A stretch of DNA of 32,148 nucleotides from the NCBI GenBank assembly GCA_023267215.1, contig JAHFNS010000002.1:1-32148 (forward strand), written 5' to 3'. Each line of letters starts with the position of its first letter. Positions within the stretch are counted from its first letter, which is position 1. A program made the position numbers and the translations under genes. Below are positions 4,831-30,021 of the stretch, one piece after another. The notes under the pieces were generated by a model, which saw only the letters and a program-made list of their open reading frames with translations, searched no databases and was not told the origin of the DNA. This DNA comes from Candidatus Nomurabacteria bacterium. GTDB taxonomy: Bacteria > Patescibacteriota > Minisyncoccia > Phycocordibacterales > UBA9973.

Positions 4831-6615
4831 TTAATATACCTCCTGCTGATAACATTTTTCACAATATACTATATCACCTTTTTCTGGGTCATAACCTGTT
4901 TTGAATTTTTCTCCGCATGGACCATCTCCATGTAAATGTTTTATTGTATTTTTATAAATTCCAGTAATATCTTCTGTACCATTACACATACATTTTTGAT
5001 CATAAAGTTTTACACCTAAACGCATTTTTAATCTTTCCATTGTTCGACAAGTAGGACAAAGCGTCGGCATAGGTACACCAATCTTGCGATAAAACTGAAG
5101 CTCGTTTGGAATAATGCGAAAAGCTTTAGTGCAATTATGATTACATTTCGTTTTGTGAGAACATTCAATAACTTCTTCTGTAGTTTTATCATCCGTTTTC
5201 GTAATATCATCAGGTATATTTGAAGACAAAATAGTGGGTTGATAATTTTTTACATCTGGTTCACGCCATCTAAATCCTTTCGCAATTACCTCTTCTTTGG
5301 TAAGCGGAAAATACTCTTGTGCGATAGTTTCATTATAAGCCCAAGGACTCATCTCAACTGGATAAAATTCACCATACTTATATACACGACCCATTTTGTC
5401 TACATATGGCATTTCATCCATGTGTTTTTTTATTTTTTCTACCAGTTTTTCATATTCTTCCTTTTTATATTTTTTATTTAAAATACAATATTGCTTTTTT
5501 TGTATTCCCACACATCCAAAAATATCCTCTGACCCTCTACAACTTATCGTATATTCAGTATCGTGGGTGCTTTCTTGGGTTAAGAATGCAAATTTTATAT
5601 TCCCTACACCAGAACCACAAGAAATAGCCTCATACACCAACTCTGCTGCATCTCCCCAGTTTGAATAATCATAACAATCTTTTGAACCTGGTGTTTCTTG
5701 GATATATTGACAATATTTTAAATTTTCACTTTCTCTTATTAAAAAAGACTCTTTAACATTTTTGGAATTCGTTACATATGAACCTATACAGTTTAAATTC
5801 TTTAAACCCTGATGATTTTTATTTGGAAATTTTTTCCAAAAAGTTTCTACATTATTTTGTGCCTTTTCAATACCAACTCTTGTATGTAAATTATATTCTT
5901 TAACTTTCTTTTCATATTCTTCTTTGTTATATTGTTCATTAAAAAAATAATAATTTTTACTTCGCAGATTTACACAACCAAAACAATTCATACAACCTAC
6001 ACAATCTTTACAAAACCATAAATCACTAGAATCAGCGCATTGCAAAGAATAATATACCTTGTAGCATGTATCTAGCCAAAAACTTTGGTAACAAGTTTCA
6101 GATTTTGAAATATGAGACACATCTACACAATCACGTGAAAAATTGATACCATTGGAATACATACAATCTTCTGGACAAGTGGTATTAAAAACAAGATAAC
6201 AATTTTTAGGATCAGTGGCATTATTTGAATAATTACTATTTACCCCACGAACCATATTATTGGACTTAAAAGGAACTTCTAGCATTAATTCATAAAGTTG
6301 AGTTAAAAATGGTCGAGTCCAATCAATATCCTTTCCATAATCCATCGCATCCCATTTGTCAGAAAGCCAGACGTCCCTTTCATAAATTTTTACTGGCGAA
6401 TCAGAAGAATACATAGAAAAAATTTCTTTACCAGAAAAGTCACATTTTCTTTTATATAAACCTCGTTCATTACGAAAAGCCCAACGTCTTTGTGTACGAC
6501 AAGGTGGACAAAAAGTCGGTGGAGGGACTTTGATTTTTTCATAAAAATTAAAGTCTTCTGGCTCAATAGTGAAGTCTTGTTTGCAGTTTTGGCAGTTTCT
6601 AGTCTCGGAATTCAT
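4831..6615 (-). CDS. large Cys-rich protein with zinc-ribbon-like ends, unknown function
   Basis: 594 residues with no function I can name. The N-terminus has C8-x2-C11 and C36-x2-C39 around FTIEPEDFNFYEKIKVPPPT. The C-terminus repeats this plan: C485/C491/C495 and C520-x2-C523 around FRIIPNELQFYRKIGVPMPT, then more Cys pairs (542/544, 585/588). So two homologous ribbon-like modules bracket the protein. The middle (about 135-380) has many spaced Cys and short repeats: GCVNLRSKNYYFFNEQYNKE (213-232, ending KEEYEK) is echoed by GCVGIQKKQYCILNKKYKKE (367-386). Such regular Cys/aromatic spacing could form a repeat solenoid. There is no signal peptide, so it is probably cytoplasmic and metal-binding. 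I recall similar proteins only from CPR genomes. TATAAT at 6622-6627 ends 6 nt before the ATG. Confidence 0.75.
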   Translation of the reverse strand: MNSETRNCQNCKQDFTIEPEDFNFYEKIKVPPPTFCPPCRTQRRWAFRNERGLYKRKCDFSGKEIFSMYSSDSPVKIYERDVWLSDKWDAMDYGKDIDWTRPFLTQLYELMLEVPFKSNNMVRGVNSNYSNNATDPKNCYLVFNTTCPEDCMYSNGINFSRDCVDVSHISKSETCYQSFWLDTCYKVYYSLQCADSSDLWFCKDCVGCMNCFGCVNLRSKNYYFFNEQYNKEEYEKKVKEYNLHTRVGIEKAQNNVETFWKKFPNKNHQGLKNLNCIGSYVTNSKNVKESFLIRESENLKYCQYIQETPGSKDCYDYSNWGDAAELVYEAISCGSGVGNIKFAFLTQESTHDTEYTISCRGSEDIFGCVGIQKKQYCILNKKYKKEEYEKLVEKIKKHMDEMPYVDKMGRVYKYGEFYPVEMSPWAYNETIAQEYFPLTKEEVIAKGFRWREPDVKNYQPTILSSNIPDDITKTDDKTTEEVIECSHKTKCNHNCTKAFRIIPNELQFYRKIGVPMPTLCPTCRTMERLKMRLGVKLYDQKCMCNGTEDITGIYKNTIKHLHGDGPCGEKFKTGYDPEKGDIVYCEKCYQQEVY

Positions 6616-9201: not shown

Positions 9202-9276
9202 TCCGGGGTAGCTCAGCGGTAGAGCGGTCGCCTGTTAAGCGATTGGTCGTAGGTTCGATCCCTACCCCCGGAGCCA
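9202..9276 (+). tRNA. tRNA-Asn (anticodon GTT), CCA encoded
   Basis: Full cloverleaf: acceptor TCCGGGG/CCCCGGA, D arm with AGCTCAGCGGTAGAGC, anticodon stem GTCGC/GCGAT with loop CTGTTAA (GTT), T arm GTAGG-TTCGATC-CCTAC, discriminator G and an encoded CCA. U1 and G73 are the usual Asn features. The next base starts the GTG of pgsA. Confidence 0.97.
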
Positions 9277-9858
9277 GTGAAAAAAACATTGGAAAAATTT
9301 GTATTATTTTTACACAAAAAATATGGTATTACGCCTGATATTTTAACTTATATAAGAATTTTTTCTGCTCCATGGCTGGCTCTATTCATTTCAAAAATTC
9401 TTATACATAAAAGTATAACATTAACCATTATTATTCTTTTATTCTATTTTTTAATAATTTCTACAGATTTTCTGGATGGTATTTTAGCTCGAGCAATACC
9501 TGAAAATAAACATCATGATCATTCCTATGGAGGAATGCTCGATCGACTAGCTGATAAAATTTTGATTATATTTATACTTATTCCATTTGGTTTTAATCTT
9601 TTTACTTTTCTCTTAATCTTAGCCGAATCAATTCTAGCCTTCCAAGCTCTCTTCTCCCCTAACGACAAAAAACAAGCTCTGAAAGCTGGTAAAATAAAAA
9701 TGATACTTCAAACATTTTTATTACCAATTTTGATATTACAAGCAGTAACCAATTTTCCAGACATGGTTGCCTATCTATATATCATCCTTACTATTATTGC
9801 TACTTATGTTTCTGTTTACTCACACTATTCACATCTTTTTTATTTTAAAAATGATTGA
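9277..9858 (+). CDS. pgsA: CDP-alcohol phosphatidyltransferase, PgsA-like
   Basis: Integral membrane enzyme. Family members join a CDP-lipid to an alcohol, for PgsA giving phosphatidylglycerol-phosphate. The 193 residues have about five membrane segments. Catalytic motif: D64 and D67-G68-x2-A71-R72, then G85-x3-D89-x3-D93. All motif residues are present, but 12 residues separate R72 from G85 (usually 8), with a His-rich insertion (NKHHDHSYG, 77-85). The start is uncertain: GTG at 9277 immediately follows the tRNA CCA, TTG at 9289 is the alternative, and no ATG exists in this part. The end overlaps the next gene by 8 nt. With PgpA next door, a phosphatidylglycerol pathway role is most likely. 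Another polar head group cannot be excluded. Confidence 0.85.
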   Translation: MKKTLEKFVLFLHKKYGITPDILTYIRIFSAPWLALFISKILIHKSITLTIIILLFYFLIISTDFLDGILARAIPENKHHDHSYGGMLDRLADKILIIFILIPFGFNLFTFLLILAESILAFQALFSPNDKKQALKAGKIKMILQTFLLPILILQAVTNFPDMVAYLYIILTIIATYVSVYSHYSHLFYFKND

Positions 9859-10828
9859 TTCTATCTCGCTTCAAATATGTAGCATCTTTGGATTATGTAA
9901 GAAAAGTAAATTTCCTGGAACTTTAGCTAGTCTGGCATCTTTAATTTTTTCTATTTTAGTTTATTACTTTTTAGGCAAAACTTTTTATGTGTTTCTGTTC
10001 TTATTTTTTTTAATTATTGGTTTTTGGGCTATCGGACAAATCCAGAAAAAAAATGGAAAGAAAGATCATCAATGGATCGGCGTGGATGAATGGATCGGTA
10101 TTTGGCTAGCTAATTTTTTTCTTTTTGAATTTAATTTCAGTTTAGTTCAAATTATTTTCTTTTCTTCAATATCTTTTTTAATCTTTAGAATCATTGATAT
10201 TTTTAAATTTATTCCTCCACTACAAAATATCAACAAAAATCAAAATCAAAATGCTACTGCCGTAATGCTAGACGATATCATAGGAGGTTTTTATACTTAT
10301 TTCCTAATGCTCATTATTTTAGGATTTTATAATTTAAATTATCTTTACTATTCTTTTTTTCTTCTATTACCAGGAATGGTGGCCAATGCAACTCCTGTTT
10401 TTTTAAAAATAAAATATTTTAATATTCCGATAAATGAACAAATCTTCGGTAAAAATAAAACCTGGCGTGGTTTCATTGGGGCTATAATATTCGGAAGTTT
10501 TTCCTATTTTATTTTAGTAAAACTTAACTTAGTAAATGGAGCCAATAGTTTTAGTTTAATCATTTTAGTTGGTTTTTTATTTGGCCTAGGCGCTATTGGT
10601 GGAGATTTAATAAAATCATTTTTTAAAAGAATAATAAGTATAAAACCCGGAGAAAGTTGGACACCTTTCGATCAGATCGATTATATTTTGGGAATGATAA
10701 TTCTAACTTATTTTTTCTATCATTATACTTTTAGTCAAATAATATTTCTTCTTATTTTAGGTGGCACAATAAGCGCCTTGGCACATAGATTAGGTTTCTT
10801 AATAAAAATAAATACCTCTAAACAATAA
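9851..10828 (+). CDS. fused PgpA (phosphatidylglycerophosphatase A) - CarS-like CDP-lipid synthase
   Basis: 325-residue membrane protein. Residues 1-155 match PgpA: FPGTLASL (21-28), VDEWIGIWLA (78-87), FRIIDIFKFIPP (112-123) and VMLDDIIGGFYT (138-149, acidic pair 141-142). PgpA dephosphorylates phosphatidylglycerol-phosphate. Residues about 165-320 match the CDP-archaeol synthase/DUF46 family: PGMVANATPVF (174-184), FGKNKTWRGFIGA (199-211), GLGAIGGDLIKSFFKR (245-260), PFDQIDYILG (272-281) and a closing AHRLGFLIK. CarS moves CMP from CTP to an acidic lipid, the CdsA step. The steps before and after PgsA are thus in one chain. The ATG at 9851 overlaps the pgsA stop by 8 nt. Upstream codons in this frame lie inside pgsA and were left out. 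The true lipid substrate is unknown. Confidence 0.82.
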   Translation: MIDSISLQICSIFGLCKKSKFPGTLASLASLIFSILVYYFLGKTFYVFLFLFFLIIGFWAIGQIQKKNGKKDHQWIGVDEWIGIWLANFFLFEFNFSLVQIIFFSSISFLIFRIIDIFKFIPPLQNINKNQNQNATAVMLDDIIGGFYTYFLMLIILGFYNLNYLYYSFFLLLPGMVANATPVFLKIKYFNIPINEQIFGKNKTWRGFIGAIIFGSFSYFILVKLNLVNGANSFSLIILVGFLFGLGAIGGDLIKSFFKRIISIKPGESWTPFDQIDYILGMIILTYFFYHYTFSQIIFLLILGGTISALAHRLGFLIKINTSKQ

Positions 10829-10840
10829 CTCTTATTGATA

Positions 10841-11908
10841 TTAAAGTGGTCTAGTTAGTCTATTCAAAAAGATTATCGCTCCTTCAAAAACACTGAAACA
10901 AAATTCATAAAAATAATCCAGGAGATGTGTATTTCTCATTTTAGGAGAATATGGCACTGAATCTTTTTTCCAATTTTCAGCAATTTCATTTAATTCTTTT
11001 ACTATTGCTGGCTCAGTAAAAAATACTCCTGATTCTATATTTAAATCAAAAGATATAATATCCATGTTTTGTGAACCTACAATACCTTCTTTTTCGTCAA
11101 CAATCATCATCTTGCTATGAATCATATCTTTTGTTAAAAAGAATTTTATATTATGCTTAAAAAGTTTCTGCATATAAAAATAGTTTGAAACATTAGCTAT
11201 ACTTGGATGATCCGCAAAAAGAGGCAGAATTATTTCTATCTCTACTCCCCTTTTCGCAGTCTTTTTTAATGCTTTTACCACCCAACGATTTGGCATAAAA
11301 TAAGGAGTAACTATTAGAATCTTTTTCCTAGCTAATTTCAATTTATCTCTATAATATTTTTTCATTCCAAAAGAATTCTTTATTGGAAAATGCTCCATAA
11401 ACCAAACCTTGCCTTTCGGTTCTTGTATGTCTTTGTCATATTTCAAAACTAATGTGTCTTTACCTCCGCAATCTTTATAAACACGAGCAAAAGATCTTAT
11501 TATATATTTTACAACCTTACCATCTACTTTTATTAAAAGATCATCCCATTTTTTATAAAATTTAGTTATATTAATACCACCCACATAACCTATTCGTTCA
11601 TCAATGACAAGAATCTTTCTGTGAGTATGACGAAAAAGTACCTTAAAAATAAACACCTCAACCCCAGCATCTTTTAAAATCTTTAGAGAATTATTGGAAA
11701 AACTATAACTACCAAGCGAGTCAATAATTATTTTGATCCTTACTCCTTCTAGAGCTTTTTGTTTTAAAATTTTAATAAAATCATGTGTATCAGTTGTATC
11801 ATCTAAAAAAGTATACATTTCAAACAAAATAGAACTTTTGGCGTGAGAAATAGCCGAAAACATAGCATCCCAAGCCTTTTCTGTCTTTGTGTAAATCTTA
11901 TAACGCAT
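10841..11908 (-). CDS. cls: phospholipase D-family protein, cardiolipin synthase-like
   Basis: 355 residues with two HKD motifs: HRKILVIDERIGYVGG (96-111; H96, K98, D103) and HSKMMIVDEKEGIVGSQN (264-281; H264, K266, D271). Each is followed by the usual G-G/G-S-x-N. Both are needed for the two-step PLD reaction. The spacing and the TPYFMPNR block (201-208) are those of bacterial cardiolipin synthases, which join two phosphatidylglycerols. The N-terminal membrane segments of ClsA are missing, as in ClsB/C types. It faces the PgsA/PgpA-CarS pair with a 12-nt gap, so the whole head-group pathway lies in 2.6 kb. I start at the ATG at 11908 because the longer frame runs into tRNA-Ala. Other PLD activities (nuclease, other lipids) remain possible. 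Confidence 0.82.
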   Translation of the reverse strand: MRYKIYTKTEKAWDAMFSAISHAKSSILFEMYTFLDDTTDTHDFIKILKQKALEGVRIKIIIDSLGSYSFSNNSLKILKDAGVEVFIFKVLFRHTHRKILVIDERIGYVGGINITKFYKKWDDLLIKVDGKVVKYIIRSFARVYKDCGGKDTLVLKYDKDIQEPKGKVWFMEHFPIKNSFGMKKYYRDKLKLARKKILIVTPYFMPNRWVVKALKKTAKRGVEIEIILPLFADHPSIANVSNYFYMQKLFKHNIKFFLTKDMIHSKMMIVDEKEGIVGSQNMDIISFDLNIESGVFFTEPAIVKELNEIAENWKKDSVPYSPKMRNTHLLDYFYEFCFSVFEGAIIFLNRLTRPL

Positions 11909-11924: not shown

Positions 11925-11932
11925 AAAATTTG

Positions 11933-12005
11933 TGGACCGTACAGGACTCGAACCTGCCACCCCCTCATTGCAAATGAGGTGCTCTACCAGATGAGCTAAC
12001 GGCCC
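11933..12005 (-). tRNA. tRNA-Ala (anticodon TGC)
   Basis: Acceptor GGGCCGT/ACGGTCC with one G-T pair, D arm GCTC...GAGC, anticodon stem CCTCA/TGAGG with loop TTTGCAA (TGC), T arm GCAGG-TTCGAGT-CCTGT, discriminator A. CCA is not encoded, unlike in tRNA-Asn, so CCA must be added by a nucleotidyltransferase. Confidence 0.96.
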
Positions 12006-13376: not shown

Positions 13377-15749
13377 TTAGTTGTCTTTTGAAACACCTTC
13401 AACTTTTTCTTTTTTGGCTTCTTCGGCTAACACATCATCAATAGAACAAACACCAGACACACAAGCGAATTCTTTAGCACCAACAGTATTATCTTCCTGT
13501 TCGTAATAAATAAGTTTCGAGAAATCAATATGTTTTATTTCTCTCATTCTTTTATCATATTCTTCTTTCGAAATCTCTTCATAGGGAGCAAGTTGATAAA
13601 CGTGTTCAGAACGAGGAAGGAATGAAAGTCCACCGACAATATCCCAATTTTCATAAATAAAATTAGCAACTTTTATCCATTCGTCATTGCCAACATAAAT
13701 AGTGACAGAAGGATTATGTTCAATATAATTTATTTTTAATCTTTTCCATTCGTTCAGTAAATCAATAGCAGAGACTTGGTCGCGAGTGACAGCGCCATCT
13801 GGTGCCTTGATTGGAAACTCAACAACAGCCACAGTAGAATTGGCAGTAGAATATCCGACTTCAGCTTTAAAAGGAACTCCTTGATCTTTGATCAATTGAT
13901 AAAGTGGATCATTGGTAGAGATACGAACGCGACGAATGTAATATTTTGCATACCATGGATGCATACCAGAACCGACATAAAGAAGCTGACCAGAATTGCC
14001 ATGTGGTTTGATGGTAGTAATACAAGTAGAACTATTTATATGAAATTTCCTAGCGTATTCTTTATTTACTTTTATAGATTCTTCACGAAGTTCCGCTAAA
14101 ACTTTATCATTTCTAATTGTTTTGTTGTCATAATAACCAGTAATAGAAACACCAAGTAAAGCTTCTTCGTCACAATTATTTTTCCATTCTTTAGATAGAT
14201 AACCAAAATTGGTTAATGTCGCTTGATAAGTACCTAAAATAGTAGAAAGTCTAACTTTTCTTTTTAAATCCTCTAGTGAATCATGTGGACGAACTACAAT
14301 GGATGTAAGATTACAAAATTGTTTTGAGCGAAGAGTAATTTCTCCGCAAGGATTTGATCCAGGCAAACCTACAATGACATTCTGGTCATCTATGATCCCA
14401 GCTTTTTTCCAATTATCAATTCGGCGTTTTGGAAGCTGAGTCATAAGACCCCCTCTATTGAATATTCCCCTTTCTCCTGTACCTGATTTGATTAATTCTA
14501 TCCATTCATTTAAAAATTCTGAAGCAGAAGGTTTTTGACTATAAACAGCTGAGTTATTAGCCATTGAGCGTTGACCATTATCAATCCAAAACTGTCCCTG
14601 TTTTGATTTACGCATTGATTCATCATCGATATCAGAGAGAGAGATGAGTGCACTGCGACGAACTCCGCCAGCAACGACAATGAGTCCAATCTGACAAATG
14701 ATATCGTGAAGATCTAAGTTGGTTAAACGTTTCCCCTGTCTTCCTAATATTTTCTTTTTTGTAAAATTAATTAAATCAATTAGAGGCTGAGGTCCAGAAG
14801 CACGTCCACCGGCCACTTTCAAACGAGAACCCGAAGGACGAACTTTACTATAATCAAATTCTATATCATATCCGTCAGCCCAAGTCTTACAACCAAATAC
14901 ATACGCGTCAGCCCAACCTTCTTTACTATCTTCCACAATATGTGTAGTAAGTTTCTTCCCAGTCTGTCTTCTTATTTGTGGAAATTTTTGAACAGTTTCA
15001 GATTCAACAGAAAAACCTAAGCCTGCTCCACACATAAGTATGTACATTATCTCTCCTAAATCTTGCCAAGCAGAAGGAGCGACATAAGAACAATTATATG
15101 CCCAAACATTTGATTTTTCACAAGCTTCGCCTGCAGACCAGAGTAATCTCATAGATGGACAAATTTCTTGTTTCAAAATTCCTTCTTTAACTTCAGTAAA
15201 ATCTTTGAGAGACATCTTGTCTCCAAGTCTTTTCTTCATATAAGCCATAAAGCGATCAATAGTCTCTACCCATGTCTCTCTTCTACCTAACCCATCTTGC
15301 CATTTTGAATATGTTCGATAAAAGATAAACTCTTCATAAGAAGATACAAAATAAGAACTTGATTCATCAAAAACTTTCTTACTCTCCGGTGGAACAGTAC
15401 CGACTTCTTTTCTCAATTCAGCTCTTTTTGACCTATATAAAATATAGGATTTGGCAGTAGCATGATATCCTTGTTCCATAAGTTCAGATTCTACGAGATC
15501 TTGAACCATTTCTACGGTCGGAACAAACTTTTTTTCTTTACTTTCTATTTTTTGATGAGTCAATTTATGGAAAACTTTAGTGGCAACATCTTTGGCTTCT
15601 TTTTTGTCTCCTTCGACAGTTATAATGAATGCTTTATAGACAGCATCCGCAATTTTATTTATATTGAAAGGAATTATTTCTCCCTCACGATTCCTGATAC
15701 TTTTCACTTTATCTAATTCTTTTTTCCCTAAAATAAAATCTTTTTCCAT
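13377..15749 (-). CDS. nrdJ: adenosylcobalamin-dependent (class II) ribonucleotide reductase
   Basis: 790 residues. Makes deoxyribonucleotides with a B12-derived radical. An N-terminal ATP-cone (about 15-112, starting IRNREGEIIPFNINKI) precedes the barrel. Cys220 (YNCSYVAP) and Cys479 (FCNLTS) are the redox pair. NPCGE (466-470) carries the thiyl Cys468 and Glu470, and GGVRRSALISL (361-371) is conserved. The C-terminal pair C763-x4-C768 (CVSGVC) is the thioredoxin-reduced tail, spaced as in the Lactobacillus-type triphosphate reductase, which this monomer-like form resembles. No class I or III genes are present, and no B12 genes are in the window, so cofactor uptake is implied. TATAAT (15756-15761) ends 6 nt before the ATG. 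Confidence 0.92.
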   Translation of the reverse strand: MEKDFILGKKELDKVKSIRNREGEIIPFNINKIADAVYKAFIITVEGDKKEAKDVATKVFHKLTHQKIESKEKKFVPTVEMVQDLVESELMEQGYHATAKSYILYRSKRAELRKEVGTVPPESKKVFDESSSYFVSSYEEFIFYRTYSKWQDGLGRRETWVETIDRFMAYMKKRLGDKMSLKDFTEVKEGILKQEICPSMRLLWSAGEACEKSNVWAYNCSYVAPSAWQDLGEIMYILMCGAGLGFSVESETVQKFPQIRRQTGKKLTTHIVEDSKEGWADAYVFGCKTWADGYDIEFDYSKVRPSGSRLKVAGGRASGPQPLIDLINFTKKKILGRQGKRLTNLDLHDIICQIGLIVVAGGVRRSALISLSDIDDESMRKSKQGQFWIDNGQRSMANNSAVYSQKPSASEFLNEWIELIKSGTGERGIFNRGGLMTQLPKRRIDNWKKAGIIDDQNVIVGLPGSNPCGEITLRSKQFCNLTSIVVRPHDSLEDLKRKVRLSTILGTYQATLTNFGYLSKEWKNNCDEEALLGVSITGYYDNKTIRNDKVLAELREESIKVNKEYARKFHINSSTCITTIKPHGNSGQLLYVGSGMHPWYAKYYIRRVRISTNDPLYQLIKDQGVPFKAEVGYSTANSTVAVVEFPIKAPDGAVTRDQVSAIDLLNEWKRLKINYIEHNPSVTIYVGNDEWIKVANFIYENWDIVGGLSFLPRSEHVYQLAPYEEISKEEYDKRMREIKHIDFSKLIYYEQEDNTVGAKEFACVSGVCSIDDVLAEEAKKEKVEGVSKDN

Positions 15750-26334: not shown

Positions 26335-26727
26335 CTAGTTAAAATCAATTGTGAAGTTATACATCCCCATAGCACATATACCTTGGATTTTTGAGCCAGC
26401 TTTTTGAGCAGGTACATCAATAAGAGTTTCTCCACTAGGAGGAAGATTATTACGATAACCAATACTTGGGATAGATAAAGCAGAAGAACAATCAAAACTT
26501 CCATTCGTTTCCATTTTTATCACTGTAGGTATACCTGATTTAGCTGTCGTAATTCTTGGTGAATATCCGCCCTTGGCATTGATTGTAATAATCTGTTTGC
26601 CATCAACGACACTCACATTATTACCTCCATCTCCTGCAGGGTTTTTGATATTCGTAAAAATAAATACTCCTGCTATCAAAATAACAACAAAGATTATTGA
26701 GAGATAAGTTGATTTTTTTTCTTTCAT
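26335..26727 (-). CDS. cupredoxin-like copper-binding protein, membrane-anchored
   Basis: 130 residues. A membrane anchor (about 8-25) precedes a cupredoxin-type domain outside the membrane: IITINAKGGYSPRITTAKSG (46-65), IPTVIKMETNGSFDCSSALS (66-85; Cys80), then GETLIDVPAQKAG (99-111) and GICAMGMYNFTIDFN (116-130). Cys118, Met120 and Met122 are in the position of the copper-ligand loop (C-x-M-G-M), as in cupredoxin proteins found beside CopA-type pumps. No His ligand is seen in the usual place, so the copper site may be Cys/Met only. It begins 3 nt after the HMA-DsbD-like stop and so belongs to the copper cluster as its last gene. Confidence 0.8.
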   Translation of the reverse strand: MKEKKSTYLSIIFVVILIAGVFIFTNIKNPAGDGGNNVSVVDGKQIITINAKGGYSPRITTAKSGIPTVIKMETNGSFDCSSALSIPSIGYRNNLPPSGETLIDVPAQKAGSKIQGICAMGMYNFTIDFN

Positions 26728-26730
26728 ATT

Positions 26731-27753
26731 TTAAAAATTAAAAATTGGTGGAATAATTCCTGCTCCGACTAGAGCATTTATTAAATTAAAAATTCCAAAG
26801 AATACCACGACGAGTCCAGCTGTTTTGAAGAATATTCCAGATTGTGCTTTTTTATGTATACCGAGAGAACTAAAAGAAAGAAGTGAGAGCACTGGAAGCG
26901 TGCCGAGTGCAAAGGCAAACATTATTAAAGAGCCAGTGATAAAGCTACCAGTCGTTAGCGAATAAATTTGCATAGACTGAGTGAAGCCACAAGGCAAAAA
27001 GAATGTAGCGACACCAACCAAGAGTGGAGTGAGTGTATGATTAATATTTTTCAAACCATGGGCATATTTACCGACAAAATTTGGCATAGTCGGTTGAAGT
27101 TTTTTAGCCCATGGGAAAATATCTAGAAGATTGATACCGAGGATAAGCAAAACAAGAGCAACAATTAAACTTAAAATAAATGTACCTATCGTTCCAAGCT
27201 GAAATGCAGAACCGAGTGCACCTATCACTCCTCCCAAAACAAAAAATGAAACGAGTCTTCCAATGTGGAATAATACTTGTGGCCTAACGCTATCCCCTTC
27301 TTTGGAAAAATTTGCTGACATAGATAACACGAGCCCACCGACTACTGCCATACAGGTAGAGACTGAAGCAACAAGCCCCACGACAAAAGCCGTACCAAAA
27401 CTAACTTTTGATACATTTATCAAATTCACAATGCCAAGTTTTTGTAAAAGAATAAAAAAAGCAATAAATCCTAAAGCGACAGGTATAGCAAGGTTAAAAT
27501 CGGACCAATTTATTTTCTTCTCTTCTTTTTCAAGTGAAAGTGTATAGCCATGTGGTTTTAAGACTACACTTAATTCTTCTGCTATCTGTTCTGGTGTTTT
27601 ATCTCCAAACTCCCCCGTCACTTCTACACTAAAATTCGCGAGTGAAGCTTTCACATGAGAAACTTCTACTATCTCATTTAGTTCACTTTCAGTCAGCATT
27701 ACACAAGCATTGCAGTGCATTCCGTTTACATTAAATGTATATGTTTTTTGCAT
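26731..27753 (-). CDS. HMA domain fused to DsbD/SafE-like membrane domain
   Basis: 340 residues. Residues 1-72 form a heavy-metal-associated domain with GMHCNAC (11-17; Cys14, Cys17), which binds Cu(I). Residues about 86-335 are a six-to-seven-helix domain of the cytochrome-c-biogenesis/sulfite-exporter-like (DsbD_2, COG2836) type. STCMAVVGGLVLSM (132-145; Cys134) and FLPCGFTQSMQIY (252-264; Cys255) are in the two matching half-repeats, as in CcdA/DsbD, which pass electrons through a paired membrane cysteine. The family is often found beside copper pumps. The role may be copper transport, or supplying reducing power to the outside copper/thiol proteins. It lies between copA (30 nt) and the cupredoxin (3 nt). 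Confidence 0.82.
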   Translation of the reverse strand: MQKTYTFNVNGMHCNACVMLTESELNEIVEVSHVKASLANFSVEVTGEFGDKTPEQIAEELSVVLKPHGYTLSLEKEEKKINWSDFNLAIPVALGFIAFFILLQKLGIVNLINVSKVSFGTAFVVGLVASVSTCMAVVGGLVLSMSANFSKEGDSVRPQVLFHIGRLVSFFVLGGVIGALGSAFQLGTIGTFILSLIVALVLLILGINLLDIFPWAKKLQPTMPNFVGKYAHGLKNINHTLTPLLVGVATFFLPCGFTQSMQIYSLTTGSFITGSLIMFAFALGTLPVLSLLSFSSLGIHKKAQSGIFFKTAGLVVVFFGIFNLINALVGAGIIPPIFNF

Positions 27754-27783
27754 AATAATATATTTAAATAATTAATAATAAAT

Positions 27784-30021
27784 TTATAACTTTTTTAATT
27801 TCAAACGAAGTGAATTACTAACAACTGAAACACTTGAAAATGCCATAGCAAAACCTGCAAATACCGGAGATAGCAACCATCCAAAAATTGGATAAAATAA
27901 TCCTCCAGCTAATGGTATACCAACAACATTATAGATAAATGCCCAGAAAAGATTTTGCTTAATACCTCGCATTGTAATTTTTGAAAGATTAACTGCTTTA
28001 ACTAGTTTAGAGATATCTCCATGCAAAAGTGTTATACCAGCTGATTCTATCGCTACATCCGTCCCCGTAGCCATAGCTATGCCTATGTCTGCCTGCGCTA
28101 GCGCTGGAGCATCATTTACTCCATCTCCTGCCATCGCTACAACTTTACCTTCTTTTTGTAATTCTTTTATTTTATTTAATTTATCCTCTGGCATTACTTC
28201 TGATACAATCTCATCAATACCAATAACTTTTGCAATATATTCTGCTGTATTTTTATTATCTCCTGTAAGCATAACTACTTTAATACCAAGCTTATGCAAA
28301 TTTTTTACTGCTTCTATTGCTTCTTCTTTTATGGCATCTGCCACCATAACAAAACCAAGTATTTTTTCTTTTGTAGTAATAATAATTGGCGTTTTCCCTT
28401 CTAGTGTTTCCTTTTCAATTGATTCAATATCAAACGACAAATTAAGCTCTCCTATTAATTTTGTATTTCCAGCATAATATACAACTTCATTTATTTTACC
28501 CTCTATCCCTTTACCTTTTATAGAATTAAATTCACTTACGGGTATTAAATTTATTTTCTTTTCGTTTGAATAAGCAATGATAGCAGAGGCTATGGGATGT
28601 TCGGAATTTTTCTCAAGAGAAGCAAGAATGGAAATGAGTTCTTCATCTTTTTTATCAGATAAATTCTTTATTAAAATAAGTTCTGGTTTACCACGTGTAA
28701 GTGTTCCTGTTTTGTCTAAAACTATTACATCAACTTTACCTAATTTCTCTAGTGTACTAGCATCTTTAATAAGAATCCCCTCTTGTGCTCCTTTCCCTAC
28801 TCCGACAATGATAGCTGTTGGTGTAGCAAGTCCTAATGCACAAGGACAAGCAATAACTAAAATACCTACAAATGATACCAAACCATAAGATAATGCTTGA
28901 GAAAATCCTAAATACTGTGTACCTACCAAAAGCCACAAACCTAAAGTAATAAAAGATAATACTAAAACAACGGGAACAAAGACACTTGAGATTTTATCAG
29001 CTAATGCTTGAATAGGAGCACGACTACTTTGTGCTTCTTCTACCATTTTTATGATATGAGCAAGCATAGTTTCAGAACCTATTTTTGTAGCCTTGAATGT
29101 AAAAGATCCTGTCGTATTTATCGTTCCAGCAACCACATTATCACCAATATTCTTACTTACAGGCATCGGCTCACCTGAAATCATAGATTCATCTACGTAT
29201 GATGAACCTTCAGTTAAAACACCATCAACAGGAATATTACTTCCTGGTTTTACAATTATTGAATCCCCATGAACAACTTGATCAATAGGTATTTCTATTT
29301 CTTTACCTTCACGAATCACCAAAGCTACCTTAGCCTGAAGGTTTAGAAGTTTTTCTATAGCATCTCCAGTTTTAATTTTTGCTCTAGCTTCAAGAAATTT
29401 ACCAAGAGTAATAAATGCTATAACCACAATAACTACATCATAATAACTCTGATTAATATTTATAAAAGATTTGAGACTTTCTTTGAAAGCACTAACGATA
29501 AAACTATAAAGAAATGCAACACTCGTACCAAGACCAATTAAAGTATCCATATTTGCTTTGCCATAACGAAAGAACCGATAAAGACCAAATAGATATGGTT
29601 TACCTACTACAAATAAAGTATAAGCAGCTAATATTGGCAAAAGATGGTGAAAAAACTCACTCCAAAAATAAGACATCTCAGATGTTAATTTAAATTGAGC
29701 AAAAATATCCCATCCCATCACAAAAACACTCACCATAACAATCGGAATGAGTAAAAAAAGTTTATTACGCATTTCTTTAAGCTCAATATTTTTTTCTTTT
29801 TCTTTTTTTAAAAAAACAAAAGAATACCCAAGTGGTTCTATCTTTTTAGAAAGCGCTTCTCCATTTGTTTTAGAAGAATCAAAAGAAATTTTAGCTTTTT
29901 CTGTGCCAGAATTTACTTCAATCGATTCCACTCCCTCTATCTTTTCCAAAGTTTTTTCAATAATACTTGCACAAGAAGCACAATGCATGCCTTTAATTTT
30001 AAAAGTTTTTACTTCATTCAT
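27784..30021 (-). CDS. copA: copper-transporting P1B-type ATPase
   Basis: 745 residues. Exports Cu(I) (or possibly Ag) using ATP. An N-terminal HMA has GMHCASC (11-17). The membrane part has CPC (392-394) in the sixth helix. The actuator loop has SGEP (282-285). Phosphorylation Asp436 is in DKTGTLT. HP (475-476) is the nucleotide-binding SEHP, and TGDN (586-589) and GDGVNDAPALA (632-642) complete the P domain. YN (697-698) and MAFSSVSVVSNSLRL (726-740) in the last helices are the Cu(I)-type P1B-1 signature. All functional residues are intact. It is third in a run with the glycosyltransferase and thioredoxin-fold genes before it (26 nt from the latter) and the HMA-DsbD gene after it. Confidence 0.96.
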   Translation of the reverse strand: MNEVKTFKIKGMHCASCASIIEKTLEKIEGVESIEVNSGTEKAKISFDSSKTNGEALSKKIEPLGYSFVFLKKEKEKNIELKEMRNKLFLLIPIVMVSVFVMGWDIFAQFKLTSEMSYFWSEFFHHLLPILAAYTLFVVGKPYLFGLYRFFRYGKANMDTLIGLGTSVAFLYSFIVSAFKESLKSFININQSYYDVVIVVIAFITLGKFLEARAKIKTGDAIEKLLNLQAKVALVIREGKEIEIPIDQVVHGDSIIVKPGSNIPVDGVLTEGSSYVDESMISGEPMPVSKNIGDNVVAGTINTTGSFTFKATKIGSETMLAHIIKMVEEAQSSRAPIQALADKISSVFVPVVLVLSFITLGLWLLVGTQYLGFSQALSYGLVSFVGILVIACPCALGLATPTAIIVGVGKGAQEGILIKDASTLEKLGKVDVIVLDKTGTLTRGKPELILIKNLSDKKDEELISILASLEKNSEHPIASAIIAYSNEKKINLIPVSEFNSIKGKGIEGKINEVVYYAGNTKLIGELNLSFDIESIEKETLEGKTPIIITTKEKILGFVMVADAIKEEAIEAVKNLHKLGIKVVMLTGDNKNTAEYIAKVIGIDEIVSEVMPEDKLNKIKELQKEGKVVAMAGDGVNDAPALAQADIGIAMATGTDVAIESAGITLLHGDISKLVKAVNLSKITMRGIKQNLFWAFIYNVVGIPLAGGLFYPIFGWLLSPVFAGFAMAFSSVSVVSNSLRLKLKKL

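Follow-up and report, generated by a model that had tools for sequence, protein, structure and literature searches.

A PgpA-CarS-like fusion protein encoded directly behind pgsA in Candidatus Nomurabacteria: a candidate bifunctional enzyme of phosphatidylglycerol synthesis

Results and Discussion

The window (the whole analyzed stretch of 32,148 nt, contig C20 of a draft genome of Candidatus Nomurabacteria) was found to carry a gene for a 325-residue protein, in which a phosphatidylglycerophosphatase A (PgpA) domain is joined to a domain related to CDP-archaeol synthase (CarS). We propose that this protein is quite probably a bifunctional CDP-diacylglycerol synthase and phosphatidylglycerophosphate (PGP) phosphatase, whose two activities would bracket the PgsA step within a salvage module for phosphatidylglycerol and cardiolipin. 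A preliminary description, made from the sequence alone, had put the protein forward as an undescribed enzyme architecture, and neither a pgpA-carS fusion nor CarS in Patescibacteria was found in the literature searched (open-licence papers). The domain architecture is real, conserved and apparently undescribed, and it is built from two known enzyme families. The genome holding the window (797 kb in 21 contigs, with a stated completeness of 100%) belongs to a tiny and probably host-dependent bacterium.

Organization of the pgsA/pgpA-carS locus

The locus is composed of a pgsA-like gene, the fusion gene and a convergent gene for a cardiolipin-synthase-like phospholipase D (PLD) protein, and it is flanked by tRNA genes on both sides (Table 1). 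The overlap of pgsA with the fusion gene had been read correctly in the preliminary description, to the exact nucleotide.

Table 1. Features of the pgsA/pgpA-carS locus of the window.
Feature	Coordinates	Strand	Details
tRNA-Asn (GTT)	9202..9276	+	ARAGORN; abuts the pgsA start codon
pgsA-like CDP-alcohol phosphatidyltransferase	9277..9858	+	193 aa, GTG start; PF01066 56 bits
pgsA/fusion gene overlap, 8 nt	9851..9858	+	sequence
pgpA-carS fusion gene	9851..10828	+	325 aa, ATG start at 9851
PgpA domain, residues 9-156	9875..10318	+	PF04608 95-98 bits; alignment
CarS-like CTP:lipid-phosphate cytidylyltransferase domain, residues 163-311	10337..10783	+	PF01864 52.9-54.5 bits; 5GUF; alignment
Cardiolipin-synthase-like phospholipase D protein, two HKD motifs	10841..11908	-	PLDc_2 153 bits; convergent with the fusion gene
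tRNA-Ala	11932..12005	-	beyond the PLD gene

In relatives such as G027 (locus L134), pgsA begins with ATG at the same protein position as the GTG of the window. A similar abutment occurs in G029, where the pgsA ATG follows the 3' end of a tRNA-like sequence (L135, 5937-5985), and the two cases together suggest a leaderless pgsA mRNA that would be freed by tRNA processing. The PLD gene probably starts at 11908, as the longer open reading frame start at 11968 falls within tRNA-Ala; automatic annotation from the latter position would err by 20 residues.

Other regions of the window encode (i) a divergent ribonucleotide reductase of 790 aa with an ATP cone (13377-15749; approximately 90% identity among relatives), which the main barrel-domain Pfam model matches weakly, (ii) a group of metal-related proteins, probably for copper (26335-30021), including a cupredoxin-like protein, a DsbD_2 protein with an HMA domain and a P-type ATPase, and (iii) a 594-residue protein with no Pfam match (4831-6615), whose gene overlaps a cytidylyltransferase-like gene.

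Domains and predicted active sites of the fusion protein

A Pfam search confirmed the composition of the protein: the PgpA family matches its N-terminal half with 95 bits (PF04608; cut-off 28; positions 2-140 of the 141 in the profile), and the CarS family matches residues 163-310 with 52.9 bits (PF01864; cut-off 22). The strict NCBIfam models fall far below their cut-offs, namely 85.6 bits against 148 for the CarS equivalog PRK04032 and 50.9 against 226 for the E. coli-type PgpA, and by these scores both halves are members of their families, but divergent ones.

The sole credible match in PDB (phmmer) is CDP-archaeol synthase 5GUF (1.7e-9; residues 162-295). The structure prediction proposed in the preliminary description pointed in the same direction. 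An AlphaFold2 model of the whole protein (pLDDT 87.8, pTM 0.75), built on an alignment of 51 rows of which only three cover the PgpA half, retrieved 5GUF as the first Foldseek match, with a TM-score of 0.72 (normalized to the target), an rmsd of 2.8 and a probability of 1.00, at an E-value of merely 1.2e-3. From the helix count of this model, both active sites would lie on the same face of the membrane, presumably the cytoplasmic one.

The CarS-like half retains N179, G200, K203, G207, D252, K255, S256, K259, R260, D274 and Q275, all of which are invariant columns among 51 CarS-like sequences, so that the CTP- and metal-site residues conserved in the family, whose loss would have spoken against the initial assignment, are all present in the alignment. 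In the PgpA half D72, D79, E80, D116, K119, D141 and D142 are invariant among nine aligned PgpA domains (seven fusions and two stand-alone proteins). With residue roles taken from conservation and from a review (PMC9385802), the catalytic residues are intact in both halves. The last helix of the CarS-like half is different: S308 and H312 occur in all seven fusions, and the stand-alone proteins carry H (43/48) and N (41/48) at these positions. Since helix 5 of ApCarS helps to form the lipid groove (PMC9385802), S308 and H312 may mark a changed lipid site. Homology between the PgpA and CarS halves, considered for their common D..K....D pattern, was rejected, as BLASTP gives no match.

The C-terminal half thus shares its five-helix fold and catalytic residues with the characterized CarS proteins (PF01864; 5GUF of Aeropyrum pernix and the A. 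fulgidus enzyme), from which the protein differs in the altered last helix, in its fusion to PgpA and in its occurrence in a bacterium with no geranylgeranylglyceryl phosphate (GGGP) synthase. The N-terminal half has the PGT, DE, DxxK and DD residues of phosphatidylglycerophosphatase A (PF04608; E. coli PgpA), which is normally a stand-alone protein, and it is encoded next to pgsA. The reaction proposed for the CarS-like half is that of CDP-diacylglycerol synthase CdsA (PF01148), whose C-terminal catalytic core is distantly related: PF01148 (CTP_transf_1) matches the fusion protein with 21.9 bits, under the cut-off of 24, and reaches 30 in a scan of the DNA, in the C-terminal core only. The N-terminal region of CdsA is missing from the fusion protein, and its segment PGESWTPFDQID does not match the CDS signature KDX5PGHGGX2DRXD quoted in PMC7018664.

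Conservation and origin of the fusion

Within a set of 60 genomes (that of the window and 59 relatives of the genus and order), 36 belong to the genus, and the full fusion is present in six of these, counting the genome of the window; the other five proteins are 53-69% identical to that of the window. A seventh fusion, with an identity of about 46-48%, was found in a Candidatus Paceibacterota genome (L011). As this genome and one of Candidatus Nomurabacteria are among the fusion-bearing relatives, the organism is placed in the Patescibacteria (candidate phyla radiation). In all seven genomes pgsA lies directly upstream of the fusion gene and the PLD gene directly downstream in convergent orientation, and the overlap with pgsA recurs in L132, L133, L134, L136 and L011, being absent in L135. 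Its recurrence in seven genomes, always directly behind pgsA, shows that the fusion arose neither by chance nor from an error of assembly.

A phylogenetic tree built from 83 CarS-like domains united all seven fused domains in a single clade (support 100), which has a long stem branch (1.21 changes per column) and is placed among stand-alone proteins of Patescibacteria and DPANN archaea. This single clade makes one fusion event likely, which would have been followed by patchy loss or transfer. In one relative, G003, an orphan pgsA (L130, 6197-6784; 59% identical) is followed by tRNA-Ala, and the fusion and PLD genes are gone from the locus. A search of the G003 genome detected no CdsA despite the retained pgsA. 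This case speaks against the proposed pathway, as PgsA may draw its CDP-lipid from elsewhere or serve a different purpose.

CarS-like, CdsA and PgpA proteins in Patescibacteria

The initial view of CarS as an archaeal enzyme was too narrow, since a CarS-like match was obtained in 49 of the 380 genomes sampled from the phylum, usually as a stand-alone protein and often beside a gene for a CDP-alcohol transferase. These outnumber clear CdsA-type matches, found in 11 of the 380 by our own reading of scores. The two types co-occur in one genome, against about 1.4 expected by chance, which means a low overlap only, and the idea of mutual exclusion was rejected on statistical grounds. PgpA exceeds its cut-off in three of the 380 genomes, one of these matches being the fusion of the window.

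We read 81 stand-alone CarS-like loci, many of limited length, which come from Patescibacteria, archaea and a small number of other bacteria; in 28 of these an open reading frame with the CDP-alcohol transferase motif lies within 2.5 kb. Ten of the closest such neighbours were checked and each one matched PF01066, several touching or overlapping the CarS gene. This general pairing supports a role of CarS as supplier of CDP-lipid. The nearest relatives of the fused domain are stand-alone proteins of Patescibacteria (e.g., L012, L017 and L021), several of them adjoining a CDP-alcohol phosphatidyltransferase gene; these differ from the fusion in being unfused and, in the loci read, have no PgpA adjoining. 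A CarS-like protein in the absence of CdsA is common in the phylum, and the PgpA fusion alone is the special feature.

The stand-alone pgpA genes of G233 and G427 were considered as parts of a pgsA-pgpA-cinA arrangement, which was rejected, their neighbours being other genes. In G233 (L139, 4017-6423) the PgpA-like protein is encoded between genes for a decaprenyl-phosphate phosphoribosyltransferase-like protein and a polyprenyl glycosylphosphotransferase, a setting in which it may serve as a polyprenyl-phosphoribose phosphatase instead of dephosphorylating PGP.

Lipid enzymes detected and not detected

The proposal that the CarS-type domain stands in for CdsA held up in the genome searches. 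In this genome CTP_transf_1 matches nothing but the CarS-like domain of the fusion itself, and no match above the cut-off was found outside the fusions in the 59 relatives; of 14 control genomes, 13 gave a match to the family in the same search. The genome holds a single PgpA (PF04608).

PlsC-type acyltransferases were not found in this genome or in the other fusion genomes of the genus set (six genomes in all), nor was PlsY detected in the seven fusion genomes or in a further 16 that were checked. GGGP synthase (PF01884) is absent at the family cut-off from all 60 genomes, and the 16 weak matches among the 380 phylum genomes are partial, nearly all C-terminal and mostly sub-threshold, none of them being convincing. 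One relative of the order, G046, combines PlsC-type acyltransferases, a pgsA-like gene and CarS in the absence of CdsA and GGGP synthase. The absence of known lipid routes agrees with published analyses, in which genomes of this group were reported to lack complete lipid pathways, lipids probably being obtained from neighbours (PMC7242380, PMC8080830).

Proposed pathway

In the proposed module, the CarS-like half would convert phosphatidic acid and CTP, with a metal ion, into CDP-diacylglycerol, in place of the absent CdsA. PgsA, which is encoded by a gene of its own, would then exchange CMP for glycerol-3-phosphate to give phosphatidylglycerol phosphate, from which the PgpA half would strip the phosphate, and the neighbouring PLD-type protein would convert the resulting phosphatidylglycerol into cardiolipin. 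A fusion that brackets the PgsA step, as suggested in the preliminary description, is thus supported. The overlapping genes would favour matched production of PgsA and the fusion protein, and physical contact between the two is our guess. Since PlsC and PlsY were not detected in the fusion genomes, phosphatidic acid would probably be acquired from other cells or built from scavenged lipid.

The unusual lipid pathway that had been envisaged at the outset stands only in part. The PgsA-bracketing fusion is indeed special; CarS in the absence of CdsA, on the other hand, is common in the phylum, and archaeal lipids are not implied, as GGGP synthase is absent. With PlsC and PlsY undetected, the unusual element is more likely the activation of phosphatidic acid from outside.

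Alternative explanations

The substrate of the CarS-like half requires caution, as the CarS family alone does not predict the use of phosphatidic acid: the A. fulgidus enzyme has a strong preference for the unsaturated substrate of archaea and failed to rescue a cdsA mutant of E. coli (PMC9385802). This family specificity, together with the presence of DPANN archaea among the closest stand-alone relatives and the acceptance of archaeal analogues by PgsA and PgpA of E. coli (PMC9385802), would fit an isoprenoid ether lipid pathway, in which the CarS-like half activates an archaetidic-acid-like lipid, supplied by unrecognized enzymes of the bacterium or by an archaeal partner, to yield archaetidylglycerol. 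We rejected an archaeal pathway as the reading of this half on the negative search for GGGP synthase, both in the fusion genomes and across the 380 genomes of the phylum, and an ether lipid route of any supply appears distinctly unlikely. Two hints favour diacyl phosphatidic acid instead, i.e., the lack of an archaeal route in the genome and the gene set of G046, which, with acyltransferases and CarS present and CdsA and GGGP synthase absent, fits a CarS acting on this substrate. A wholly different possibility, that an ordinary CdsA has been lost in the gaps of a draft assembly of 21 contigs and the CarS-like half has another job, is extremely improbable given the stated completeness and the absence of CdsA also from the 59 relatives, many of them nearly complete.

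The identity of the head group was considered in the same manner. The pgsA-like protein has the motif DFLDGILAR...GGMLDRLAD, with a loop longer than usual, and its best NCBIfam model, TIGR00560 (pgsA), scores 47.6 bits, under the cut-off of 109; models of archaetidylinositol-phosphate and phosphatidylinositol-phosphate (PI-phosphate) synthases also match, weakly. It is therefore conceivable, if rather unlikely, that the transferase is not PgsA and makes another phospho-head-group lipid (e.g., phosphatidylinositol phosphate) that the PgpA-like half dephosphorylates, and the polyprenyl-phosphate-ribose setting of the G233 protein suggests that further lipids may be substrates of the family. However, pgsA is the best NCBIfam match for the transferases of the window, L134, L011 and L130, and the cardiolipin-synthase-like gene adjoining in all seven genomes fits a phosphatidylglycerol product. 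The PLD protein itself matches bac_cardiolipin (TIGR04265) best, with 158 bits against a cut-off of 290, followed by ClsB with 144 against 281. Because both the pgsA and PLD proteins score under their cut-offs, a glycerol head group and a cardiolipin product are likely rather than certain. The long stem of the fused clade and the altered residues of the last helix could also be explained if one half alone were a working enzyme and the other a scaffold joining PgsA and its partner. This we consider improbable, as the aligned fused forms keep every family-invariant core residue and the genome offers no other candidate for the CDP-lipid synthase or the PgpA step.

Implications for Patescibacteria

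The bifunctional bracket enzyme may be part of a wider pattern. We tentatively suggest, with somewhat less than even confidence, that many Patescibacteria rely mainly on CarS-like proteins for CDP-lipid synthesis, that these proteins use diacyl phosphatidic acid and so cross the "lipid divide" in their substrate, and that one Nomurabacteria lineage fused PgpA to such a protein. In this lineage the fusion would bracket PgsA, CDP-lipid and PGP would be handed from one active site to its neighbour, and lipid taken from a host would be made into phosphatidylglycerol and cardiolipin of the bacterium itself.

The supply of membrane lipids in Patescibacteria is an open question, their genomes having been reported without complete lipid pathways (PMC7242380). 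For part of the group, the module described here would provide a concrete and testable answer, in which a compact bracket enzyme serves to build head groups onto phosphatidic acid that the cell has acquired. CarS-type enzymes are treated as markers of archaeal lipids, and the locus raises the question of whether a large phylum of bacteria employs them on bacterial substrates, in which case the annotation "CDP-archaeol synthase" in Patescibacteria would be misleading.
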